Of a stretch of 64,000 nucleotides of DNA, positions 48,958-63,670 are shown piece after piece; within the stretch, counting starts at the first letter, position 1, and every line of letters begins with the position of its first letter. Source of the stretch: Pseudomonas sp. BGr12 (lineage in GTDB: Bacteria; Pseudomonadota; Gammaproteobacteria; Pseudomonadales; Pseudomonadaceae). Under the pieces are notes generated by a model, which did not search any database, was not told the origin of the DNA, and was given only the letters and a program-made list of their open reading frames with translations. Where the stretch lies: contig NZ_JALRNF010000021.1 in the NCBI RefSeq assembly GCF_030272895.1, forward strand, positions 30,835-94,834, read 5' to 3'. The position numbers and the translations under genes are program-made.

Positions 48958-48984
48958 CCGCTGCCACCTTTGCGACTGCAGGCT

Positions 48985-49331
48985 CCCACAGGTTCAACCA
49001 CACCCACCTGTGGGAGCTGCCGCCAGGCTGCGATCGGGCGCGAAGCGGCCGCAAAACCTGCCACCGCCGAACACCTGACTCACCGAGGCGACTGGATTGC
49101 GACTGCTGCGCAGTCGATCGCAGGCTTCGCCAGCTCCCACAGGTTCCACCACACCCACCTGTGGGAGCTGCCGCCAGGCTGCGATCGGGCGCGAAGCGGC
49201 CGCAAAAACCTGCCACCGCCGAACACCTGACTCACCGAGGCGACTGGATTGCGACTGCTGCGCAGTCGATCGCAGGCTTCGCCAGCTCCCACAGATTCCA
49301 CCACACCCACCTGTGGGAGCTGCCGCCAGGC
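48985..49331. repeat. Tandem repeat of a 151-bp unit (about 2.3 copies)
   Basis: A unit containing CCCACAGGTT...CCTGTGGGAG, a GCGATCGGGCGCGAAGCGG segment and GCAGGCTTCGCCAGCTCC recurs with starts 151 and 152 bp apart (CTGTGGGAG at 49008, 49159 and 49311). The copies are nearly identical, so the duplication is recent or kept homogeneous. Each unit holds CCCACAGG/CCTGTGGG hairpins. The 48958-49438 gap has no gene. Confidence 0.8.
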
Positions 49332-49371
49332 GATCAAGTCAGTTGCCCCAGGGGTTCAATTGCACACACCC

Positions 49372-49442
49372 GTAGGAGCGGGCTTGCCCCGCGATTGCAG
49401 TGTGTCAGTCACATTGCAATCGCGGGACAAGCCCGCTCCTAC
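49372..49442. repeat. REP inverted-repeat pair overlapping the regulator stop
   Basis: GTAGGAGCGGGCTTGCCCC begins at 49372 and its complement ends at 49442, with one mismatch. The right arm covers the stop codon of the sigma-54 regulator gene (49439-49441), so the hairpin forms the 3' end of that transcript. Confidence 0.75.
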
Positions 49443-50866
49443 CACTGCCGCTTGTCTGGCCGGGTCAGGCCCAGTTTTTCAATTCGGTAGCGCAGCATGT
49501 CGCGGCTCAAGCCGAGCAACCGCGCCGATTTGGTGACGTTCCAGTCGGTACGGTCAAGCATCTTGCGCACCATGTCTCGCTCCACTTCCGGCAAGCTGGT
49601 GGTCGCCATGCCCTCGCCATTGACGTGGCTTTCGTGCGGTACCGCAACCGGCACCTCGAAAGGTTCGTCCACCAGGCTCATGCAGACATTGAGCTGGTGC
49701 GGGGAAATTTCCTCGCTGGAGGCAAGCAACACGGTCTGCTCCAGCATGTTGCGCAGCTCACGGACGTTCCCCGGCCAGCTGTAGTTGAGCATCAGCTCTT
49801 CAGCCTCGGGACTGAAATACAGGTGCGACTTGCCGTAACGCTTGCCATGCAAGGCCAGGAAGTGCCGGGCCAGCAGCAGGATGTCCTCGCCGCGGGCATA
49901 GAGCCTGGGCACCTTGATCGAGATGATGCGCAGGCGGAAGAACAGATCGCGGCGGAACTTGCCCTGTTGCACCATCTGCTCCAGGTTGCAATTGGTGGCG
50001 CTGATGATGCGCAAGTCGACCTTGCGCTCCTTGACCGCGCCGATGCGCCGTATGGTCCGGTCTTCGAGCAACTTCAGCAGCTTGGCCTGCAGCAACAGGT
50101 CCATCTCGCCGATTTCGTCGAGGAACAGGGTGCCGCCATCGGCGGCCTCGACCAGCCCCACGCGGCGGTCCTTGGCATCGGTGAAAGCACCCTTCTCATG
50201 ACCGAACAGCTCGGCTTCGAGCAGGTTGGCCGGGATCGAGGCGCAGTTGAATTCGATGAACGGCCCCTTGCTGCGCGCACCGTCAAAATGCAGGGCGCGG
50301 GCCACCAGTTCCTTGCCGGTACCGGTCTCCCCTTCCACCAGCACCGGCGGCAGGTCGCCGCTGGCCATGCGCTGCTCGGCGTCGAGCAACTGCTTGAGGG
50401 TGTGCTTGAGCCCGAGCATGGCCGGCGACTCGCCAATCAATGCCTGGCACCCGGATTTCTGTGCCTCGCGCTCCTGGTAGAAGGTCAGCGTACGCTCCAG
50501 GCGTTCGGTGGCCAGGGCCTTGTCCAGCATCAGTTTGAGCTCGGCCAGCACCACCGGTTTGGTCAGGTAGTGGAAAGCGCCCTCTTTCATCGCCAGCACG
50601 GCGTCTTCGACGTTGCCGTAGCCGGTCATCATGATCACCTTGAGCTCTGGTGCTCGCGCCGTCAGGGCCTTGATCAGCTCATGGCCGCTCATGCCCGGCA
50701 ACGAGTTGTCGGTCAGTACCGCATCCGGCTGGCATTGCTGAAGTTGCTCCAGGGCCTGCTCGGCGCTATTACAGACGGTGACCTCGAAGCCCTTTCGCTC
50801 CAGATAGGTCTGAATATTCTCAGCGAGGATTTCGTCATCCTCGACCACCAGGATGCTATGTTCCAT
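49439..50866 (-). CDS. Sigma-54-dependent response regulator (NtrC family)
   Basis: This 475-aa protein has a receiver domain ([19 protein letters not shown], phosphorylated Asp in [12 protein letters not shown]), an AAA+ domain ([30 protein letters not shown]) and a Fis-type HTH ([23 protein letters not shown]). The sigma-54 contact loop reads GAFTDA rather than GAFTGA, a natural variant. Start 50866 (MEHSILVV) has GGGAGGGG upstream and overlaps the kinase gene by 11 bp. It is probably the activator of the sigma-54 promoters at 56251 and 58023. The gene set recalls MnxR of P. putida GB-1. Confidence 0.92.
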
Positions 50867-52331
50867 GGTCCCCTCCCGTTGCAATCTTGAAAGTCAGACA
50901 TACACGGGTTCCTTCCTCGATGCGGCTAGTGAGGCTGACGGCGCCGCCGAAACGTTCCATGATCCGTTTTACCAGCACCAGGCCGACCCCTAGGCCGCCC
51001 TGTTTGGTGGTGAAGAATGGTTTGAACACCATCCGCTCCTGCTGCTGGCTCATGCCTTTGCCAGTATCACTCAAGGTCAGCTGAAACTGGCGCTCGCTGG
51101 TCAGTTCGATCACTTCAATGGTCAACCGACCGCCGCCCGGCATCGCTTCCAGGGCGTTGGAGAACAAACTGTTGAGAATCTGTGTCAGCAACACCGGCTG
51201 GCTGACGACCAGCGCCTGTTCCGGCGCGCTGACCTGCAGTTCTATCTTGTTGCGTTCGATCTGCTGGGCAAAGGCGTGGCAGGTGTCATCGATGGCCGCC
51301 CGCAGCTCGACCGCTTCGGCATCATCCTTGAGCGGTCGCAGCGACACCAGCAGCTCACGCACCCAGCGCGACATGCGGTCGACCTGGCTGATGATGTCGC
51401 CAATATTCTTCTGCGAGTGCTCACTGGCGATCTCCTGGGCCAGCTCGGCACTGGAGCGGATATTGGCCAGCGGGTTGCGCAGGCTGTGGGCCACCGCCGA
51501 CGACATCTCGCCCAGGGCCACGAAGGTCTCGCTGGCCACCAGTTGCGTCTGCTGGGTCTGCAGCATGCTGGCGGCGCGGCGCACGATCCAGAACAGGCCG
51601 AAGTAGACCAGTGCGCCACCGAGCAGGGTCGAGGTCCAGATCAGCACGTAACCGCGCTGGATGCGCCGCACCAGGTCGCGGGGCTCCTTGTACACCTCGA
51701 CCATCGACAGCACCTTGGTGCCGCTGTCATCGAACATGGGGATGTAGTTTTCGATGAACAGGTACTCGGGCTCGCGCTGGAATTTCTGCTCTTCGCGGTC
51801 TTCGTTGGCCTTGTGGTAACTGGCCGAGACCGGCACCCGCGAATTGAACGACTCGTCCAGGTCATCGTCACCGACGATCTTCTGCCCGACCAGGGCCGGG
51901 TTGGTGGACCAGACGATGGTCCGGTCCAGGGCATAGACATTGCTCAGCAGGGTGTCGGGCAGGTGTTCGACATGATCGAGGAATTCGATGCGGGTGGAGG
52001 CCGCCAGGTCTGCGCTGACGTAAGGGTGCTCGTGGTCCTGGCGCGGGTCGAGCAGCTCGGCCATGGTGGTGCCCGGCGGGATGCGCGAATGGCGCACCTC
52101 GGCCTTGGCCATGGCCTGGATGAACTGGGCGGTGAGCATGGCATCGCGCTCGACGCTGTCGTTGACCACGAACTGCGTCGAGACATAGCCCAGCCCCACC
52201 GCCACCGAGGCAATGAACAACAGGCTGACCAGGGAGAACCAGCGCAACAAGTTGAATTCGCGCAAGGTGCGGTCCGGTGCTGCCTGGGTACTGCTGCCCT
52301 CATCGGCCAACTTCGGGTTCAGCTCCTGCAT
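50856..52331 (-). CDS. Sensor histidine kinase (kinase 2 of a paralogous pair)
   Basis: This 491-aa inner-membrane kinase has helices at about 27-50 (FSLVSLLFIASVAVGLGYVSTQFV) and 225-245, around a periplasmic sensor of about 170 residues. The cytoplasmic part has the H-box VAHSLRNPLANIRSSAELAQEI, N-box LFSNALEAMPGGG, DTGKGMS and GGLGVGLVLVKRIMERFGG. It closely resembles the kinase at 56386-57855 over its whole length. It overlaps the regulator gene and is its likely partner. Start 52331 (MQELNPKLAD) has AAGGAAA; a longer frame to 52394 lacks support. Confidence 0.92.
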   Translation of the reverse strand: MQELNPKLADEGSSTQAAPDRTLREFNLLRWFSLVSLLFIASVAVGLGYVSTQFVVNDSVERDAMLTAQFIQAMAKAEVRHSRIPPGTTMAELLDPRQDHEHPYVSADLAASTRIEFLDHVEHLPDTLLSNVYALDRTIVWSTNPALVGQKIVGDDDLDESFNSRVPVSASYHKANEDREEQKFQREPEYLFIENYIPMFDDSGTKVLSMVEVYKEPRDLVRRIQRGYVLIWTSTLLGGALVYFGLFWIVRRAASMLQTQQTQLVASETFVALGEMSSAVAHSLRNPLANIRSSAELAQEIASEHSQKNIGDIISQVDRMSRWVRELLVSLRPLKDDAEAVELRAAIDDTCHAFAQQIERNKIELQVSAPEQALVVSQPVLLTQILNSLFSNALEAMPGGGRLTIEVIELTSERQFQLTLSDTGKGMSQQQERMVFKPFFTTKQGGLGVGLVLVKRIMERFGGAVSLTSRIEEGTRVCLTFKIATGGDHGT

Positions 52332-52434
52332 CGATTTTCCTTGCGAGCTGTTTTCTTTGAATTTATAGCCCAGCCTGGATCCATCGTCGTACATGAATAT
52401 TAATGGTCAACCACAGAGTGATAGTATTTTGCCT

Positions 52435-53415
52435 CTACTGTGTTTCGCGAGCCCCGTCAGGCGTGGCTTTCGCCTGTTCCAACGCGCCCTGGCGGACACT
52501 TTCCTGCTCAAGGAACTCCAGCAGGGCGTCGACATTTTCCTCGCTCAAGCGCAGGTTCGGCATGGCGATCCGGTCGTACTGCTGGAACAGCGCCAGCGCC
52601 TGGGCGTCACGTTCGGCCAGCATCCGGTCCGGCTCGCGGATCCAGCGGCTCAGCCAGGCCCGCTGACGGCGCCCGGTGACGCCCAGCAGGTCTGGCCCCA
52701 CGGCGCGCATGCCGAGGCCCTGGCCATCCTCCGGCCCCAGGCTGTGGCAGGCCGCGCAGCGGGTACGGAACAACTCCTCGCCATTGCTCGGCGGACGGAT
52801 CTCCGGTGCCTGGGCATAGCTCTGCTCGGTGCTGGGCTGCTTCCAGTTGTGCAGGCTGTTGGCCAGCTGGTCGGCCAGTATCCACGGGTTTTCGAAGGGT
52901 GAAGCCTTCATCCAGCGCCCGGTGGCCTGGTTGCCGACGATCAGGCTGAGGTTGTGGTCGCGGCTGCGACCGTTGTCGACGCCCTCGATGAACAGCCCCA
53001 GACGCCGGCGCAAGGCGTCGATCTGCGCCTTGTCGCCGGTGAGAAAACGCCAGCCCGGGCCCACCTTGAACTTTGCCGCATAGGCCTTGAGGACCTCGGG
53101 GGTATCGCTGAGCGGATCGATGCTGATCGAGTAGAAGAACACATCCTGCCCCACCCGCTCGCCGAGCAGTTGCTGGACCTGGCGCAAGCGCGCCGTCTCC
53201 AGCGGGCAGGAATCGCCACAGCCGGTGAAGATGAAGTTGATCACCACCACCTTGTCCTTGATCAGGTCATCGAAGAAGCGCACCGAACGGCCATCCTGGT
53301 CGATCAGCTCGGTGTTGGGGAAAAAGTCCGCCCCCCAGGGGGTGGCCTCCTCGGCCACCCCTTGCAGCGCCCAACACAGCAACAGCGCAGCCATCCACAG
53401 CGAAAACCGCTCCAT
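52435..53415 (-). CDS. SCO1/SenC copper protein fused to cytochrome c
   Basis: This 326-aa protein has a signal peptide (MERFSLWMAALLLCWALQGVAEE). A thioredoxin-fold SCO domain follows, with the copper motif TGCGDSCP (C-x3-C-P) and the distant His in SRDHNLSLIVG. After about residue 205 there is a c-type cytochrome domain with the haem site CAACHSLGPEDG and axial Met in IAMPNLRLSEENVDALLEFLE. It probably delivers copper to, or takes electrons from, the multicopper oxidase encoded 15 bp upstream. SCO and cytochrome c fused in one chain is an uncommon layout. Confidence 0.9.
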   Translation of the reverse strand: MERFSLWMAALLLCWALQGVAEEATPWGADFFPNTELIDQDGRSVRFFDDLIKDKVVVINFIFTGCGDSCPLETARLRQVQQLLGERVGQDVFFYSISIDPLSDTPEVLKAYAAKFKVGPGWRFLTGDKAQIDALRRRLGLFIEGVDNGRSRDHNLSLIVGNQATGRWMKASPFENPWILADQLANSLHNWKQPSTEQSYAQAPEIRPPSNGEELFRTRCAACHSLGPEDGQGLGMRAVGPDLLGVTGRRQRAWLSRWIREPDRMLAERDAQALALFQQYDRIAMPNLRLSEENVDALLEFLEQESVRQGALEQAKATPDGARETQ

Positions 53416-53430
53416 GATCCTCTCCTTCGG

Positions 53431-56211
<2,781 letters not shown>

Positions 56212-56250
56212 GATGTCTCACCCAGGTTTTACTGACGGGTGATATCGATT

Positions 56251-56266
56251 TGCAACTAACTGGCCA
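56251..56266 (-). promoter_or_regulatory. Sigma-54 (-24/-12) promoter of the oxidase operon
   Basis: Read on the minus strand: TGGCCAGTTAGTTGCA, with GG and GC exactly 10 bp apart and a complete TTGCA. It fits the consensus TGGCAC-N5-TTGCA well and lies 40 bp before the oxidase start. The operon it drives encodes a sigma-54 activator, so autoregulation is likely. Confidence 0.75.
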
Positions 56267-56353
56267 AAAGTGTTTCAAAATGTGTATCTGTTATTAATCA
56301 ATGTATTAGCCTGGATTTCGCTGCACGGGGGAGCGAAGACAGTGGGGCTTATC

Positions 56354-56370
56354 CCCCCAGAGTCGGGTCA
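56354..56370. promoter_or_regulatory. Candidate upstream activator site, copy 1
   Basis: CCCCCAGAGTCGGGTCA lies about 88 bp upstream of the oxidase -24 element. The same CCCCCA-N5-GGGTCA recurs at 57930-57946 before the curlin operon. It may bind the response regulator. Confidence 0.45.
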
Positions 56371-56385
56371 AAAACGGTGGGGAAT

Positions 56386-57855
56386 TCACTGGGCAGCCGG
56401 CAAGCGCGCCACACGAAAGTTCAGTTGCACGGTGGTGCCCTCACCTTCCTGGCTGCTCAGGCGCACCGATCCGCCAAAGCGCTCCATGATGCGCTTGACC
56501 AGCACCAGGCCAACCCCCAGCCCGCCTTGCTTGGTGGTGTAGAACGGCTTGAGGGCCATGCGCAACTGCGCCTCGGTCATGCCCTTGCCGCTGTCGCGCA
56601 CCCGCAGGACCACGGTCTTGCGCCCCTTCATCAGCTGCTCCACGCGCAGCGTCCCGCCCTCGGCCATGGCCTCCAGGGCGTTGGCGATCAGGCTGTTGAA
56701 AATCTGCCCGAGCAGCGCCGGCTGGCTGAGCACCCGCACATCGGCCAGGGTACCCACCTGCACCTCGATGCCCTGGCGCCGCAACTGCAGGGTGAAGGCC
56801 TGCAGGCTGTCCTTGAGCACCGGTTCGATCTCCACCGCTTCGACCTCGTCGTTGAGTGGGCGCAATGACTGCAGCAACTGGCGTACCCAATGCGACATGC
56901 GGTCGACCTGGCTGATGATGTCGCCGATGTTCTTCTGCGCCGGGCCCTCTTCGATTTCCTGGGCCAGCTCGGCACTGGAGCGAATGCTGGCCAATGGGTT
57001 GCGCAAACTGTGGGCCACCGCCGAGGACATCTCGCCCAGGGCGACAAAGGTCTCGTTGTTGATCAGGCGCTTCTGCTGCACCGCCATTTGCCGGTTGGCC
57101 CGGTACATCAACCAGTACAGGCCGCCGTAGATCAGCGCCGCGCCCAATGCCACCGCCAGCCAGATCAGCACCAGGCCGCGCTCGATGCGCAGGATCAGGT
57201 CGCGGGGTTCCTTGTAGATCTCGACCATGGCCGTGACGTTCTCGCCATCGGCATCGAACAGCGGGATGTAGTTCTCGATGAACAGCTGTTCGGGTGGGGT
57301 GATGAACTTCTGTTCGCTGCGTGCCTGGTCGACGTTGTGGTAACTGGCCGAGACACCGACCTTGTCCTCGAAGGCACGCTCGAGGTCTTCGTCGGCCTCG
57401 ATCATCTTGCCCACCAGCGCCGGATTGCTCGACCAGATCACCATGCGGTCCGGGGCATAGATGTTGGCCAGGAGCGTGTCCGGCAGGTTGGCGATGTGAT
57501 CGAGGAACTCGCCACGGGCGCTGCGCCGGGCCTGGGGGTCGACGTCGGGAAAGCTCTGGTCCATGCGTGGGTCGAGCAACTCGCCCATGGTCCGCACATT
57601 GGGGATGGACACATGACGCACTTCGGCCGAGGCGATGGCCTGGATGAACTGGGCCGTGAGCAGCGCATCGCGCTCGACGCTCTGGCTGATCACGAAGCGG
57701 CTGGAGATCAGCCCCAGGCCCACGGCCACCGACAGGATGATCGCCAGGCTGACGAAAGCATACCAGCGCAGCAGGTTGAAGGGTCGTTTGCCCGTGCCCG
57801 CTGCAGCATTGGCGGCAGGTTGGGACGGTGAGTCCAGGCGTGACTGCAGATCCAT
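56386..57855 (-). CDS. Sensor histidine kinase (kinase 1 of a paralogous pair)
   Basis: This 489-aa kinase has helices at about 30-52 (YAFVSLAIILSVAVGLGLISSRFV) and 225-250 around a periplasmic sensor (SVERDALLTAQFIQAIASAEVRH...GEFLDHIANLPDTLLANIYAPDRMVIWSSNPALVGK). The H-box is VAHSLRNPLASIRSS, the N-box LIANALEAMAEGG, followed by DSGKGM and GGLGVGLVLVKRIMERFGG. It is a full-length paralogue of the kinase at 50856-52331. Start 57855 (MDLQSRLDS) has GGGAG upstream. It has no regulator of its own next to it, so both kinases may feed the single sigma-54 regulator. MnxS1/MnxS2 of P. putida GB-1 is the precedent. Confidence 0.92.
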   Translation of the reverse strand: MDLQSRLDSPSQPAANAAAGTGKRPFNLLRWYAFVSLAIILSVAVGLGLISSRFVISQSVERDALLTAQFIQAIASAEVRHVSIPNVRTMGELLDPRMDQSFPDVDPQARRSARGEFLDHIANLPDTLLANIYAPDRMVIWSSNPALVGKMIEADEDLERAFEDKVGVSASYHNVDQARSEQKFITPPEQLFIENYIPLFDADGENVTAMVEIYKEPRDLILRIERGLVLIWLAVALGAALIYGGLYWLMYRANRQMAVQQKRLINNETFVALGEMSSAVAHSLRNPLASIRSSAELAQEIEEGPAQKNIGDIISQVDRMSHWVRQLLQSLRPLNDEVEAVEIEPVLKDSLQAFTLQLRRQGIEVQVGTLADVRVLSQPALLGQIFNSLIANALEAMAEGGTLRVEQLMKGRKTVVLRVRDSGKGMTEAQLRMALKPFYTTKQGGLGVGLVLVKRIMERFGGSVRLSSQEGEGTTVQLNFRVARLPAAQ

Positions 57856-57929
57856 CGCGAACTCCCGGCAGATGACTCTTAAGGTTATAGACCAGTTACC
57901 TGTGATTGCCCCTGCGCTCCCCCCAATCG

Positions 57930-57946
57930 CCCCCAACCCTGGGTCA
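57930..57946. promoter_or_regulatory. Candidate upstream activator site, copy 2
   Basis: CCCCCAACCCTGGGTCA lies about 77 bp upstream of the -24 element of the curlin operon and repeats the motif at 56354-56370 at a similar distance. It lies between the divergent kinase-1 and curlin genes. Confidence 0.45.
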
Positions 57947-58022
57947 TCGGCCCCGCGCCGTTCACCCTGCCCTGCCTCCTGTTTTTCTCTACAGGCCAGG
58001 CAGTACAAGGCTTTGCCGAAAC

Positions 58023-58037
58023 TGGTATGGAAGTTGC
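58023..58037 (+). promoter_or_regulatory. Sigma-54 (-24/-12) promoter of the curlin operon
   Basis: TGGTATGGAAGTTGC has GG (58024-58025) and GC (58036-58037) exactly 10 bp apart and a complete TTGC. It lies 55 bp before the first ATG of the secreted-protein/curlin operon. With the regulator next door, it is a likely target. Confidence 0.68.
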
Positions 58038-58092
58038 CAACCTTTGAGCAGACGACCCAAGTCCATGGGCCCGATTGCGAGAGGGAAGACTC

Positions 58093-59439
58093 ATGCACCG
58101 TCCAACGCCCCACCCACTGGCTTTGCTGATCCTGGCCGGCCTTATCCAGGCACCAGCCCAAGCCGCACTGTTCGACGTTGACCCCGGCCCTTACACGCCG
58201 GCAACAGGCGGTTTCGCCGCCTGGTACCAGGATACCCATGGCAGGGTACTCGACCTGTGTCTGTCCAAGGCCGTCAGTTCGCGGGTCGCCGGTGCCCCCG
58301 GCGCGCCTTCGTACATGTGCGTCCTCAACCCGGCACCCGGGGTGTTCGACGACACCCTGCCGATCAGTTTCCCCACCAACTACCCCGACGAGACCTTCTG
58401 GTTCACCGCTGACGCGGCGCTCGTCGATGCCGCCCGCGGTATCGACTTGAGCTACGGCTCGGCCATCGAGGCGGCCTTCGCCGCCGAAGACGTGCACGAC
58501 GGCGACCAGGTCAGTTTTGCCCGGGTGCGGATCCGTGTCGATGTGCCCACCGCCGGCACCTACATCATCACCCACCCTTACGGGGTCGAGGTGTTCGATG
58601 TGCCCGCCGCCGGTGGACGCGCGATCAACATGACCCGCGACATCGGCATCGGCTCGCCGAAAACCTACACCGGCGCCCTCAAGGGCGATGTCGGCCCGTT
58701 CCTGCGTGGCGTCGGTGGGCCCTACACCGAAACCAACCCGGAGACCGGTGCCAGCGAAATCTACATCGGCGACCCGAACCTCAACGAAGCCGTCACCGGC
58801 AGTCCGTTCAACACCAACTTCGTGCGCATCGAAGGCCCCAACGGCCTGGACCTGCGCACCGAGCTGTTCGCGATCTCCGGCAAGCTCTCGAACGTCGTCC
58901 GGCCTACGCCAATCATCGCCCAGCGCAGCACCTACTCGCGCCACAGCGAGGACGGCGACCTGCGCGCCCAGCAGGATGTCTTCGTGCAGGCGCCGCCACC
59001 ACCGGGCACCGCCACCCTGATCAGCCAGACCCCGACCCTGAGCCTGAGCGAGGCCGACAGCACCGGCGCCTGGTACGGCCAGTCGGCGCTCAACCCGGCC
59101 TTGCCGCAGAACCTGCAGGTGACCGCCGACAACCAGTTGGCGATCCCCAGCAGCACCCCGACCACCCTGAGCCTGCCACTGACCGATCTGGTGGTGATCC
59201 AGCGCGCCGAGTTCAGCCTGAACTCCGGGCAGCTGACCCTGGTCGCCTCCACCAGTGATGAAACCAGCCCTCCGGGACTCGTCGCCACCACCGGCAACGG
59301 CGCCACCATCGGCACCTTGAGCGGTGACGGTGCGGTCAAGACGCTCAGTACCGGGCTCTCGCCGATCCCGCCGGCGAAGGTCACGGTGACCAGCGCCAAT
59401 GGCGGTACCGACACTGAAGAAGTGGTGCTTGTGCCATGA
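58093..59439 (+). CDS. Secreted protein, novel N-terminal module (paralogue A)
   Basis: This 448-aa protein has a signal peptide (MHRPTPHPLALLILAGLIQAPAQA). About 220 residues follow that are closely matched in the next gene: DVDPGPYTPATGGFAAWYQDTHGRVLDLCLS, PSYMCVL, INMTRDIGIG, FLRGVGGPYTETNPETG, SPFNTNFVRIEGP. Two cysteines are conserved (LDLCLS and YMCVL). The C-terminal half is Thr/Ser-rich beta sequence. No known domain is recognised. The start is fixed by GAGGGAAG. It is the first gene after the sigma-54 promoter and probably a surface or fibre-associated protein. Confidence 0.75.
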   Translation: MHRPTPHPLALLILAGLIQAPAQAALFDVDPGPYTPATGGFAAWYQDTHGRVLDLCLSKAVSSRVAGAPGAPSYMCVLNPAPGVFDDTLPISFPTNYPDETFWFTADAALVDAARGIDLSYGSAIEAAFAAEDVHDGDQVSFARVRIRVDVPTAGTYIITHPYGVEVFDVPAAGGRAINMTRDIGIGSPKTYTGALKGDVGPFLRGVGGPYTETNPETGASEIYIGDPNLNEAVTGSPFNTNFVRIEGPNGLDLRTELFAISGKLSNVVRPTPIIAQRSTYSRHSEDGDLRAQQDVFVQAPPPPGTATLISQTPTLSLSEADSTGAWYGQSALNPALPQNLQVTADNQLAIPSSTPTTLSLPLTDLVVIQRAEFSLNSGQLTLVASTSDETSPPGLVATTGNGATIGTLSGDGAVKTLSTGLSPIPPAKVTVTSANGGTDTEEVVLVP

Positions 59440-59474
59440 ACATCATCTCGCCACGTTCCGTAGCAGGAGGCACC

Positions 59475-61706
59475 ATGAACAACTGGCCACGCCTGGCGCT
59501 ATGCGCAGCCGGGCTCTCCCTCTCGCTGGCCGGCACTGCCTGGGCCGGCCTCAAGGCGGTCGATCCCGGCCCCTACACCCTGGCCACCGGGCGTTACCCG
59601 ATGTGGTACCAGGACAACGACGACCTGTCACTCGAGCTGTGCCAGTCGCGCGCTGCGAGCTCGCGGGTGCCGGTCTCGGTGCCGCCAGCCTACATGTGTA
59701 CGCTGCTGCCCGAGCCAGGCATCTACGACGATGCCTTGCCCCTGGTATTCCCCGACAACTGGCCACCGGAGATGTTCTGGTACCTGGCGGAAACCTCGAT
59801 TCCGGCGGTGGGCAACAGCGGCTATGAAATGGACGTCTATGTCGCCGGCATCGAAGCGGCCTTCGCCGCCGAGAACCCGGTCGATGGCGACCAGCAGAGC
59901 TTTGCCCGTATCCGTATCCGCGTCTCGGTACCCCAGGCCGGTACCTACGTCATTACCCACCCCTATGGCGTAGAGACCGTCAACGTCACTACCCCCGGAC
60001 GGCGGGCGATCAACATTACCCGCGACGTCGGCATCGGTGCACCAGGCGACTTCAGCGGCGCGCTCAAGGGTGCGCTCGGGCCATTCCTGCGCGGCGCCGG
60101 CGGGCCCTACAAGGAGGTCAACCCCGACACCTCGACCATCGAAACCTTCATTGGCGACCCGAACATTACCGAACCGGTCATCGGCAGCCCGTTCAATACC
60201 AACTTCGTGAAAATCGAGGGCCCGGCCGGGACCATCCAGACCAACCTGTTCACCGTCTCCGGCAAAGTCCTCGACCAGCGCACCCAGGTGGCCGCCGAGC
60301 TGCAACGCGCCAGCTACCGGCGCACCGCCGAAGGCACCCGTGTGGAGGTGTTCGCCAAGGCACCGAATACGGCCACCCTGTGCTTCCGTGAAACCCTGGC
60401 CCTGGTGCCTGGCACCCCGCCTTCGCCTTGCCAGTTCAACCTGCTGGCCGACAACAGCGGCCTGTTCTTCGCCCATCACCTGAGCAGTGCCGCGCCGCCA
60501 CCGGTGGTCGTGGTCACCGCCACCGACCCGAGCGGCGTCAATCGCCCCACCGCGCTGTCGAGCAAGCTCAGCGACGTGGTCAAGGTCACCACTGCACGCT
60601 ACGACTGGGCCAACAAGCGCCTGCGCATCGAGGCCAGTTCCAGTGACGAAGTGCAGGTGCCCGACCTGGTCGCCCAGGGCTATGGCCGCCTGTCCAAGTC
60701 CGGCACCCTGCAAACCCTGACCGTCAACGACCTGCAACAGCCACCGGCCACCGTGACCATCAAGTCGGCAGCCGGCGGCAGCGACACCGAGGCAGTCGTG
60801 GTGGTCGGCAACGCGCCGGTCGAGGCCGAGAACCAGCCACCGGTGACCCAGGCCGACGTCGGTAGCACCAGCTCCGGCGTGCCGCTGACCATGAACCTGC
60901 TGACCAACGACAGCGACCCGGACGGTGATGTGCCACTGAGCATCACCGACCTGACCCAGCCGGCTACCGGCCAGGGCACTGTCGCCCTCAGCGGCAGCAC
61001 CGCCGTGGTCTACACCACGCCGGCGACTGTCACCGCGCCGATGACCACCACCTTCACCTACCGGGCCCAGGACAAGAAAGGGCTGAAGTCGGAAGTGACC
61101 ACAGTGACCGTCAACGTCGCACCCAACCAGCCGCCTACCGTGGTCAACGACACGGCGGCAACCCTGGGCGTGACCTTGCCGATCAACGTGCTGCTCAACG
61201 ACAGCGATCCGGAAGGTAACACGCCGCTGGCCGTTGCCAGCGTCGGCCAACCCGCCACCGGACGCGGTACGGTCACCACCGATGGCACCCAGGTCATCTA
61301 CACCCCACCGGCCACCATCACGGCAGCCTTCACCGCCACCTTCACCTACATCGCCCGGGATAGCCTCGGCGCCCTCTCGGCACCGGCCACGGTGAACGTG
61401 CAGGTGTCGCCACGGCCGGCAGCGGAGACCTTCGCAGTGACCGCCGCCACCGTCACGGCGCGCTCCAACAACCGCTTCAACTGGGACATCTCGGGCACCT
61501 CCTCGGTGACCACCGGCAACACCGTCACCGTGCAGGTCACCACCCCGAACGGGCTGGTCACCCTGGGCAGTACCGCGGTGCCGCTGACCGGACGCTGGCG
61601 CCTGGCGGTGAGCAACAGCACCACGGTGATTCCGACCGCGGCGCCTACGGCCACCATCCGTACTAGCCAGGGCACTGTCCGCACCGTGCCGGTCAACGTG
61701 CAGTAA
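59475..61706 (+). CDS. Secreted protein, novel module plus tandem cadherin/Ig-like repeats (paralogue B)
   Basis: This 743-aa protein has a signal peptide (MNNWPRLALCAAGLSLSLAGTAWA) and the same N-terminal module as paralogue A (AVDPGPYTLATGRYPMWYQDNDDLSLELCQS, AYMCTLLPEPGIYDDALPL, INITRDVGIG, SPFNTNFVKIEGP). From about residue 455 there are two tandem VCBS/cadherin-like domains (LTMNLLTNDSDPDGDVPLSI..., LPINVLLNDSDPEGNTPLAV...), then a final beta domain. The Asp-rich NDSDP(D/E)G turns suggest calcium binding. Start 59475 has AGGAGG; the earlier ATG at 59436 overlaps the previous stop but spoils the signal peptide. A large adhesin or matrix protein is likely. Confidence 0.78.
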   Translation: MNNWPRLALCAAGLSLSLAGTAWAGLKAVDPGPYTLATGRYPMWYQDNDDLSLELCQSRAASSRVPVSVPPAYMCTLLPEPGIYDDALPLVFPDNWPPEMFWYLAETSIPAVGNSGYEMDVYVAGIEAAFAAENPVDGDQQSFARIRIRVSVPQAGTYVITHPYGVETVNVTTPGRRAINITRDVGIGAPGDFSGALKGALGPFLRGAGGPYKEVNPDTSTIETFIGDPNITEPVIGSPFNTNFVKIEGPAGTIQTNLFTVSGKVLDQRTQVAAELQRASYRRTAEGTRVEVFAKAPNTATLCFRETLALVPGTPPSPCQFNLLADNSGLFFAHHLSSAAPPPVVVVTATDPSGVNRPTALSSKLSDVVKVTTARYDWANKRLRIEASSSDEVQVPDLVAQGYGRLSKSGTLQTLTVNDLQQPPATVTIKSAAGGSDTEAVVVVGNAPVEAENQPPVTQADVGSTSSGVPLTMNLLTNDSDPDGDVPLSITDLTQPATGQGTVALSGSTAVVYTTPATVTAPMTTTFTYRAQDKKGLKSEVTTVTVNVAPNQPPTVVNDTAATLGVTLPINVLLNDSDPEGNTPLAVASVGQPATGRGTVTTDGTQVIYTPPATITAAFTATFTYIARDSLGALSAPATVNVQVSPRPAAETFAVTAATVTARSNNRFNWDISGTSSVTTGNTVTVQVTTPNGLVTLGSTAVPLTGRWRLAVSNSTTVIPTAAPTATIRTSQGTVRTVPVNVQ

Positions 61707-61723
61707 CCCGAGGAGAAACGACC

Positions 61724-62197
61724 ATGGCGCGCCTGACCACCCTGCTGCTGTGCCTGACCCTGATCGGTCAGGCCGCCCTGGCCGACGATTTGATGGATAA
61801 CGCCGACATCGGCCCCGGCGGCGACCTGGGCGAGCCGCTGTCCATGCAGCCACTGCCGGCCAGCGCCGGGCAGCAGGCGCTGATCGGACAGGACGGCCAG
61901 TCCAACCGCGCCGCCATCGGCCAGGACGGCCAGGCCCTGCTGGGCCGCATCGTCCAGGAAGGTGGCGCACAGGAGGCGTACATCCTGCAGCAAGGCAACG
62001 ACCTGATGGCGACCATCAACCAACAGGGGTATGGCAACAACGCATCGATCACCCAGAGCGGCAGCAACAACCGTGCGCAGATCGAGCAGTACGGAAACAG
62101 CAACAGCGCCAGCATCGCCCAGTCCGGCTCGGGGCTTTCCAGCTCCGTGGTCCAGGCCGGCAACGGCCAGCGCGTGCAAGTCAATCAATACCGATAG
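61724..62197 (+). CDS. CsgB-like minor curlin / nucleator
   Basis: This 157-aa protein has a signal peptide (MARLTTLLLCLTLIGQAALA) and several curlin-type repeats with Q-x-G-x-x-N or N-x-A-x-I-x-Q spacing (GQDGQSNRAAIGQDGQ, QQGYGNNASITQSGSNNRAQIEQYGNSNSASIAQSG). It ends in a short basic GQRVQVNQYR tail, as CsgB does. It would anchor or nucleate the major fibre subunit encoded next. A GAGGAG Shine-Dalgarno precedes it. Confidence 0.85.
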   Translation: MARLTTLLLCLTLIGQAALADDLMDNADIGPGGDLGEPLSMQPLPASAGQQALIGQDGQSNRAAIGQDGQALLGRIVQEGGAQEAYILQQGNDLMATINQQGYGNNASITQSGSNNRAQIEQYGNSNSASIAQSGSGLSSSVVQAGNGQRVQVNQYR

Positions 62198-62215
62198 TTA
62201 CCTGGAGGCACCACC

Positions 62216-63670
62216 ATGTTCAAGCTCGCTCCCTTAAGCGCCGCAATTGTCCTGGCCGTTGCCGGCCAGGTCATGGCCGATGACAGCCTGTCGACCCAGA
62301 GCCAATCCGGCACCGAGAACATCGCCGAGGTCAAGCAAACCGCAGCGCCGTACAGCACTGCCACCCAGAACCAGTACGGCGAGGGCAACAACCACGCCAT
62401 CAAGCAGGAAGGCGGCGACAGCCCGATCTGGCAGGATGCTGCCGGCGACTACAACGCCGGTTACGCCGAGCAACTGTACGAGACCGGTAGCCAGATCCAC
62501 CAGAACCAGACCGGCGCCCTCAACGTCGCCCATGCCAGCCAGTCCCTGGGCACCGAAAACAACGCCCAGCAGACCCAGCAAGGCACCGGCAACTTCTCGT
62601 TCGTCTACCAGGATTCGCAGATCGGCAACCAGGCCACGACCCTGCAGTACGGCAATGACAACCGGGCGTACGTCGAACAACTGTTCAGTGGCGGCACCAA
62701 CTCGGCCACCAGCGTCCAGACCGGTAACAACAACTACAGCGCCGCCGAGCACATCAACCACAACAACGGCCAGATCGGCATCTACCAGGTCGGCGACGAC
62801 AACTGGGCCTACGGCGACCAGCGCGAGGGCCAGGGCGGTACCGTGAACATCTCCCAGAACGGTACCGGCAACTCCACCGAGGTCTGGCAGGACACCCAGC
62901 TTGGCGCCCAAGCGTCGATCACCCAATATGGCCAGACCAACGAAACCATCGTCGACCAGAGCTTCGGTGACGGCAACATCGCCAGCGTGCTCCAGGTCGG
63001 CAGCCTCAACGCCCTCTACGCCGATCAGTTCGAGTCGCTGCAGTCGACCACCACCCTGGTCCAGAGCGGCCAGAACAACCTCAGCTTCACCTACCAGAAC
63101 GGCGACAACCATGTGCTCTCGGTGACCTCCACCGGTACCGGCAACCAGGTGTTGGCCAGCAACTGGAAAGGCGAGAAATCCGGTGGCCAGTTCGGCAGCG
63201 GCCAGCGCGCCGAGATCAACCAGAACGGCACCGGCAACAGCGCCAACCTGACCCAGAATGACGCGAACCAACTGGCCCGGTTGAACCAGAACGGCTACAC
63301 CAACACCGCCGAAGTGACCCAGTCCGACAGCAACAACGAGCTGTACTTCGAGCAGAACGGCAGCGACAACCTGCTGATCGCCGCCCAGCGCGGTACCGAC
63401 AACTACGCCACCGGCTCCAGCACCGGTTCCACCAACAGTATCCTGCTCGACCAGTCCGGCAGCGGCAACCAGAGCTACACCTGGCAGCTGTACGGCGACA
63501 ACAACAAAGCCACCATCACCCAGACCGATGGGGTCAATGGTGCCAACGTCGCCTACGTGACCCAGGGTGGTTCCTACAACCAGGCCGTCGTCGACCAGAG
63601 CGGCGCGAACATGAACGCCACCGTCCAGCAGTTTGGCAATGGCAACCAGGCGTCCGTCCTGCAGCAGTAG
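62216..63670 (+). CDS. CsgA-like major curlin (long repeat form)
   Basis: This 484-aa protein has a signal peptide (MFKLAPLSAAIVLAVAGQVMA) and more than 20 curlin-like repeats (QNGTGN, QYGNDN, QTGNNN, QVGDDN, QSGQNN, QNGYTN, QNGSDN, QFGNGN). It is about three times the length of E. coli CsgA (some 150 aa). It is poor in Lys/Arg and rich in Gln, Asn and Gly, as expected for an extracellular functional amyloid. The secretion genes csgE, csgF and csgG are not in this window. An intrinsic terminator closes the operon. Confidence 0.88.
   Translation: MFKLAPLSAAIVLAVAGQVMADDSLSTQSQSGTENIAEVKQTAAPYSTATQNQYGEGNNHAIKQEGGDSPIWQDAAGDYNAGYAEQLYETGSQIHQNQTGALNVAHASQSLGTENNAQQTQQGTGNFSFVYQDSQIGNQATTLQYGNDNRAYVEQLFSGGTNSATSVQTGNNNYSAAEHINHNNGQIGIYQVGDDNWAYGDQREGQGGTVNISQNGTGNSTEVWQDTQLGAQASITQYGQTNETIVDQSFGDGNIASVLQVGSLNALYADQFESLQSTTTLVQSGQNNLSFTYQNGDNHVLSVTSTGTGNQVLASNWKGEKSGGQFGSGQRAEINQNGTGNSANLTQNDANQLARLNQNGYTNTAEVTQSDSNNELYFEQNGSDNLLIAAQRGTDNYATGSSTGSTNSILLDQSGSGNQSYTWQLYGDNNKATITQTDGVNGANVAYVTQGGSYNQAVVDQSGANMNATVQQFGNGNQASVLQQ

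Follow-up and report, generated by a model that had tools for sequence, protein, structure and literature searches.

A predicted manganese-oxidation regulon of Pseudomonadaceae with a curlin operon

The locus and the island around it

The window analysed here, a stretch of 64,000 nucleotides from Pseudomonas sp. BGr12, carries mnx regulatory genes and a multicopper oxidase gene on one strand and, divergent from them, an operon in which two genes termed orfX and orfY stand ahead of two curlin-repeat genes. We think it rather probable that the Pseudomonadaceae have a conserved Mn(II)-oxidation regulon that takes in the curlin operon, and that the genes here form its regulator-proximal half.

The minus strand holds, in this order, mnxS1 (56386..57855), mcoA (53431..56211), a SCO1/SenC plus cytochrome c gene (sco, 52435..53415), mnxS2 (50856..52331) and mnxR (49439..50866), with gaps of 174, 15 and 40 bp and an overlap of mnxS2 with mnxR. 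By Pfam, MnxR is an NtrC-type sigma-54-dependent response regulator with receiver, sigma-54 AAA+ and Fis helix-turn-helix domains; its start was set at MEHSIL within a full frame of 49439-50884(-). Activators of this class usually carry a GAFTGA loop, and in MnxR this loop reads GAFTDA, as it does in 83/83 orthologs read. Both kinases are NtrB-like and have HisKA and HATPase domains (Pfam, with translation for mnxS1 and a motif check for mnxS2), their starts being set at MDLQSRL for mnxS1 and at MQELNPKL for mnxS2 (frame 50856-52394(-)); they are paralogs, about 59% identical to each other at locus L100. The mcoA product belongs to the McoA Mn(II)-oxidase family (Pfam, four copper motifs, 79 related loci), and that of sco has, besides its Pfam domains, the motifs CGDSC and CAACH.

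On the plus strand, orfX (58093..59439) encodes a secreted protein of 448 aa with no assigned function, a companion of MnxG and McoA. It is followed by orfY (59475..61706), whose product is a paralog of OrfX (47% identical) extended by two Big_9 domains and a C-terminal module that fused McoA paralogs also carry, and by a csgB-like gene (61724..62197, 157 aa) and a csgA-like gene (62216..63670, 484 aa, 11 strict repeats). Curlin repeats were assigned to the latter two by Pfam and motif count, and their signal peptides were judged by eye only. The window ends with its contig (C130), 330 bp past csgA. Pfam and motifs thus bear out in full the gene content given by a first-pass annotation of this DNA, namely a sigma-54 activator, two paralogous kinases, an oxidase/SCO-cytochrome c operon and a divergent curlin operon.

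The locus appears to be half of a larger unit. Three other genomes have one contiguous island (about 37 kb in G274, 38 kb in G237 and 32 kb in G005) that runs from the mnxG operon through a receiver gene, GspE/PilN/GspM/secretin/pseudopilin-like genes and a gene at the csgE position to csgF and csgG, and continues on the other strand with csgA-csgB-orfY-orfX, then mnxS and mnxR. Gene families were assigned by Pfam in G274, where the gene at the csgE position had no Pfam match; neither had MnxG, which is named from its size, its operon partners and the order as printed for P. putida GB-1. Within these islands mcoA is included in G274 and, together with sco, in G237, and lies outside in G005; in G365, a genome without McoA, mnxG to orfX fall within 30 kb and mnxR is 22 kb away. 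In the source genome the island is split between two contigs: its first half lies on C211, which carries CsgG, csgF beside it by homology, and mnxG-operon homologs, and the window supplies its second half.

By its family and by the SCO gene downstream of it, as in Pseudomonas sp. MS-1 and DSV-1, the window's mcoA is predicted to encode a Mn(II) oxidase. It is conceivable that the enzyme is instead a copper or phenol oxidase and that the regulon serves copper stress or some other oxidation in the matrix, given that a substrate is not readable from sequence and that copper handling, too, could involve SCO and cytochrome c partners. This is very improbable in view of the MnxG operon of published make-up in the source genome and of the finding that McoA and MnxG of GB-1 each oxidise Mn and that a double deletion forms no oxide (PMC11930936).

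Linkage and co-occurrence

How constant is the pairing of oxidase and curlin genes? A scan of one genome per species, of which the best 80 of 584 matches were used, gave 79 McoA loci. At 54 of these, mnxS1 and the divergent orfX-orfY-csgB-csgA operon are present, with csgB-csgA directly after orfY in 54/54, and a further 6 are truncated by the contig end, which lies 68-538 bp from where mnxS1 matches. The other 19 are arranged otherwise; in 13 of them a stretch of about 200 aa resembling the OrfY C-terminus (45-51% identical) directly follows mcoA, in one frame with it in both loci opened (L081, L085). A second McoA type, unlinked to mnx genes and followed by or fused to this stretch, is found at L076-L078, L081-L090, L098 and L099, and L030 and L055 show mcoA-sco-mnxS2 with no mnxS1, mnxR, orfX or curlins inside 10-kb flanks. 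The side-by-side arrangement on which the first-pass annotation had built is thus conserved at the 54 linked loci, although mcoA sits elsewhere in genomes such as G004, G005 and G014.

The curlin operon keeps closer company with the regulators. Around orfX we read 40 loci, a selection including odd cases: mnxR stands beside orfX in 22 and the curlins are there too in 17, and because mcoA lies in between in only 2 of these 17, the curlin operon is, in this set, more closely linked to mnxS/mnxR than to mcoA. In 10 of the 40 (L159-L165, L179-L181) the operon has no adjoining mnx genes. Routine unlinking of the oxidase and curlin sets would, by the criterion of the first-pass annotation, speak against a common regulon, and these ten loci and the mcoA genes sited elsewhere do so in part; yet the eight of them checked for promoters all keep the dyad and sigma-54 site described below, and every OrfX genome has an mnxR ortholog (69/69, as against 0/11 chosen curlin-bearing genomes without OrfX).

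Co-occurrence was followed over 398 Pseudomonadaceae genomes from 19 genera, chosen since a genus-level search covered only 25 genomes. Carriers number 69 for OrfX, 66 for MnxG, 140 for curlin repeats and 50 for McoA, the last figure including three weak or partial matches (G081, G137, G351). OrfX occurs in 66/66 MnxG genomes and in 3/332 others (both 66, MnxG alone 0, OrfX alone 3, neither 329), and those three all have a McoA match, full in G034 and partial in G081 and G351; McoA and OrfX coincide in 50 genomes, with McoA alone in none. The OrfX/MnxG pattern covers six of the 19 genera and holds also where the genes are unlinked. Curlin repeats and MnxG are found together in 61 genomes. OrfX and OrfY, rather than curlin, are therefore the constant partners of MnxG and McoA.

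What might these two proteins do? Both have signal-peptide-like starts, as judged by eye. OrfX has no Pfam match, and its AlphaFold model (mean predicted local distance difference test score 60, first half poor) yielded no functional lead, the 50 Foldseek matches listed being mostly immunoglobulin-like chains with template modelling scores of at most 0.32. Outside OrfY itself, its C-terminal module has just two matches in the source genome with E up to 0.001, both in McoA paralogs (on contigs C280 and C240), and a protein search with the last 117 residues of OrfY returned, among the best 120 of 782 matches, only proteins that are OrfY-like by length or domains. Curlin-less genomes keep orfXY, and in four loci a GspA- or GspB-like gene, recognised by eye, comes next. 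Because the module is shared with McoA paralogs and such a gene adjoins orfXY, OrfX and OrfY would seem to work with an exported oxidase, and they most likely act outside the cell as its partners or anchors. In the curlin-less L177, L184, L186 and L187 the gene after orfXY looks by eye like GspA/ExeA (AAA ATPase), and the second orfXY copies without curlins in L172 and L178 are followed by a 272-aa protein that, again by eye, is outer-membrane-channel-like.

These observations suit an explanation to which we give somewhat less than even prospects, namely that OrfX and OrfY are the true partners in Mn oxidation and that a general biofilm curli merely shares their operon, its fibres being uninvolved. 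OrfX is universal with MnxG and curlins are not, orfXY persists in curlin-less genomes, partly beside Gsp-like genes, and the OrfY module is fused to McoA in paralogs; the unbroken succession of csgB-csgA behind orfY at the linked loci and the presence of csgF-csgG in one island with mnxG in several genomes pull the other way.

Promoter sites and a shared upstream dyad

Both operons are preceded by a putative sigma-54 promoter of the form GG-N10-GC, TGGCCAGTTAGTTGC (56252..56266, minus strand) for mcoA and TGGTATGGAAGTTGC (58023..58037, plus strand) for orfX-orfY-csgB-csgA. Upstream of each lies an inverted repeat, CCCGACTCTGGG (56356..56367, minus strand) for the mcoA operon and CCCCAACCCTGGG (57931..57943, plus strand) for the curlin operon, which we propose as MnxR sites, and between the mcoA dyad and its promoter stands a site like that of integration host factor (IHF), AATCAATGTATTA (56296..56308, plus strand), a perfect match to the consensus. 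Matches to the sigma-54 consensus are, by themselves, not above chance in the window (94 with up to two mismatches, 107.6 expected from shuffles), so that the promoter calls rest on conservation and on the dyad upstream, from both of which the sigma-54 sites gain weight.

GG-N10-GC precedes mcoA in 54/54 linked loci and is strong before orfX in 36/54. The first-pass annotation had called this spacing invariant before each operon; it is present at both promoters here, and the word holds for mcoA and fails for orfX. All 12 printed of the 18 deviating orfX promoters read GG-N10-GT and keep the -24 part (L039, L044, L045, L048 from P. koreensis, L049, L051, L052, L054, L058, L065, L070 and L074).

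The dyad, CCC-[AG]-N4-[CTG]-GGG or near it, is mostly found 90-110 bp upstream of the sigma-54 site (extremes about 65-125). It occurs in 66/74 de-duplicated orfX upstreams (resampled mean 7.9, maximum 16) and in 35/56 mcoA upstreams (mean 3.5, maximum 9). A type-II-secretion-like operon that includes the receiver gene and gspE has two dyads upstream in the source genome (L219) and in L212, L214 and L220 and one in L195, in all five cases followed by GG-N10-GC as judged by eye, and mnxG has one in 7/12 upstreams printed. This similar dyad before four operons (mcoA, orfX, mnxG and the type-II-secretion-like one) is a candidate for the MnxR binding site. In G343 and G354, genomes without McoA in which mcoA-sco is missing between mnxS1 and mnxS2, a dyad with sigma-54 site still stands about 100 and 370 bp before mnxS2 (L168 13356, L169 14888).

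When the whole 5.63-Mb genome was searched with a dyad-and-promoter pattern modelled on these sites and related ones, 8 matches came up, the two window promoters among them, whereas the backward version of the pattern, used as a control, gave none. The other six overlap called genes, as does the orfX site itself, where the called frame is an over-long reading of mnxS1. Sorted by downstream gene over 80 loci, the combination precedes mcoA in 72/80 and orfX in 35/54 cases, csgA, csgB, orfY, mnxS1, mnxS2, mnxR and sco in none (0/52 to 0/69 each) and other called genes in 5/830, of which one reads as mnxG and three are one gene in related genomes. Perfect dyads, in a form fixed after the promoters had been seen, number 32 in 691 kb, and 25 of them fall within about 14 kb, made up of 39 upstreams of orfX, mcoA, mnxG or the secretion operon.

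The claim that one MnxS/MnxR sigma-54 regulon spans both operons, made in the first-pass annotation, is partly supported: promoter conservation, the common dyad and co-occurrence favour it and make the curlin operon a putative member. Other findings weigh against it. The orfX sigma-54 site is weak in 18/54 linked loci. The two dyads of the window are both imperfect, and no more than 7/12 mnxG upstreams match, that of the source genome (L221) having its arms one base further apart. A stricter dyad, CCC-R-A-N3-Y-GGGG, is found in 50/74 orfX and only 4/56 mcoA upstreams, and so the two dyads differ in their inner bases; even the looser form is mostly missing from fused and unlinked mcoA copies. 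Finally, the genomes share ancestry, and their co-occurrences are not independent events.

Searches with the dyad composite also count against it. They gave 46 matches in 789 kb, 30 near target starts and 16 unassigned to a target (one of these, in L211, stands before mnxG). Controls produced 28 matches when the arms were reversed, 44 when they were set seven bases apart and 15 when five, and 4 and 8 when the promoter spacing was shifted by one. The five- and seven-base controls settle little, because runs of C and G let them overlap in part with true dyads. The dyad composite alone is not specific and is no proof of a regulon.

Some of these points would be expected if the curlin operon had its own sigma-54 activator and were a mere neighbour of the mnx genes, functionally separate from Mn oxidation: curlins are missing in 5/66 MnxG genomes and present in 79/332 without MnxG, the operon can stand without adjoining mnx genes, and the orfX promoter differs from that of mcoA in its inner dyad bases and in the IHF-like site, a near-perfect copy of which (0-1 mismatch) lies between dyad and sigma-54 site in 35/46 mcoA and only 3/72 orfX upstreams. 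We nevertheless hold such independence to be unlikely, as similar dyads recur before mcoA, orfX, mnxG and the secretion operon and OrfX tracks MnxG even in genomes whose mcoA or mnx genes lie elsewhere. Control of the curlin operon by MnxR is likely, and because the IHF-like site is typical of mcoA and rare at orfX, the timing of curlin expression may differ from that of the mcoA operon.

Apart from these promoters, three repeat units about 151 bp apart, the third partly diverged, lie downstream of mnxR (48982-49359) and resemble a repetitive extragenic palindromic (REP)-type array.

A proposed assembly and its relation to known systems

We envision a scenario whereby MnxS1 and MnxS2 sense a cue (in GB-1, activity of the oxidase promoters requires Mn and stationary phase) and pass phosphate to MnxR, which would bind CCCC-N6-GGGG-like dyads about 100 bp upstream and act with sigma-54 polymerase on the mnxG operon, on mcoA-sco-mnxS2-mnxR, on the type-II-secretion-like operon toward csgF-csgG and on orfX-orfY-csgB-csgA. 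With mnxS2 and mnxR placed right behind mcoA-sco, MnxR probably boosts its own production, a positive feedback that would fit the expression by subpopulations described for GB-1 (PMC11930936). The cell would then export its Mn oxidases along with OrfX/OrfY and, in most lineages, with curli fibres as well, and the curli would most likely retain enzyme and oxide in the matrix. Tentatively, and with some way to go before it could be called probable, we extend this to an extracellular assembly in which MnxR switches on oxidases, a dedicated export route, OrfX/OrfY and a curli scaffold bearing the oxide, with OrfX and OrfY anchoring the oxidase on the fibre or on the surface of the cell; oxide might form on the fibres. 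The physiological function of bacterial Mn oxidation has been termed elusive (PMC11930936), and its conserved genetic connection with a curli matrix and with two secreted proteins as yet unstudied makes it approachable by deletions and promoter tests. The dyad, as a candidate MnxR site, offers a handle for finding the rest of the regulon; the publications cited gave no binding site for MnxR, though no search aimed at one was made.

The RpoN-dependent Mn-oxidation switch of MnxS1, MnxS2 and MnxR is, as the first-pass annotation had it, established in P. putida GB-1. MnxS/MnxR are needed for Mn(II) oxidation in GB-1, and an rpoN insertion abolishes it in MS-1, where GB-1 rpoN restores it (PMC11409713); GB-1 oxidases are under MnxS1/S2/MnxR control (PMC8218464; PMC9765421), and IHF and sigma-54 sites have been predicted ahead of mnxG and mcoA (PMC11930936). 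A link between curli and Mn oxidation, of which that annotation knew no description, was not found in the open-licence literature (titles and abstract openings, partly among the matches listed). Four P. putida strains were described as having csgEFG and csgAB clusters and, separately, Mn-oxidation homologs, with no link found in the part of the source used (PMC3056050), and the words curli, csg and amyloid have no match in the main text of PMC11409713.

Likeness to E. coli curli lies in the curlin repeats and in the CsgF and CsgG families; here, in contrast, the promoter is of sigma-54 type with a dyad, and orfX-orfY precede the curlins, while at the csgE position stands a gene to which Pfam assigns no family. 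A Gsp-related pathway for a Mn-oxidising factor of GB-1 was reportedly described by de Vrind in 2003, and the type-II-secretion-like operon between mnxG and csgF-csgG may be of a similar kind. The mnxG operon of GB-1 encodes a giant protein, a beta-propeller, two SCO proteins, a binding protein with cytochrome c and SurA (PMC11409713), in the same order as in G274; unlike in the GB-1 listing, the operon is continuous in G274, G237 and G005 with the secretion operon, csgF-csgG and the curlins. The gene order mnxS1-mcoA-SCO-mnxS2-mnxR has already been published for MS-1 and DSV-1, together with the sigma-54 dependence of Mn oxidation (PMC11409713), to which the present locus adds orfX-orfY-csgB-csgA in divergent orientation and a dyad common to both operons. 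As far as the literature was searched, this comparison suggests that the common dyad, the proposed regulon of four operons, the island and the constancy of OrfX/OrfY as partners are new.

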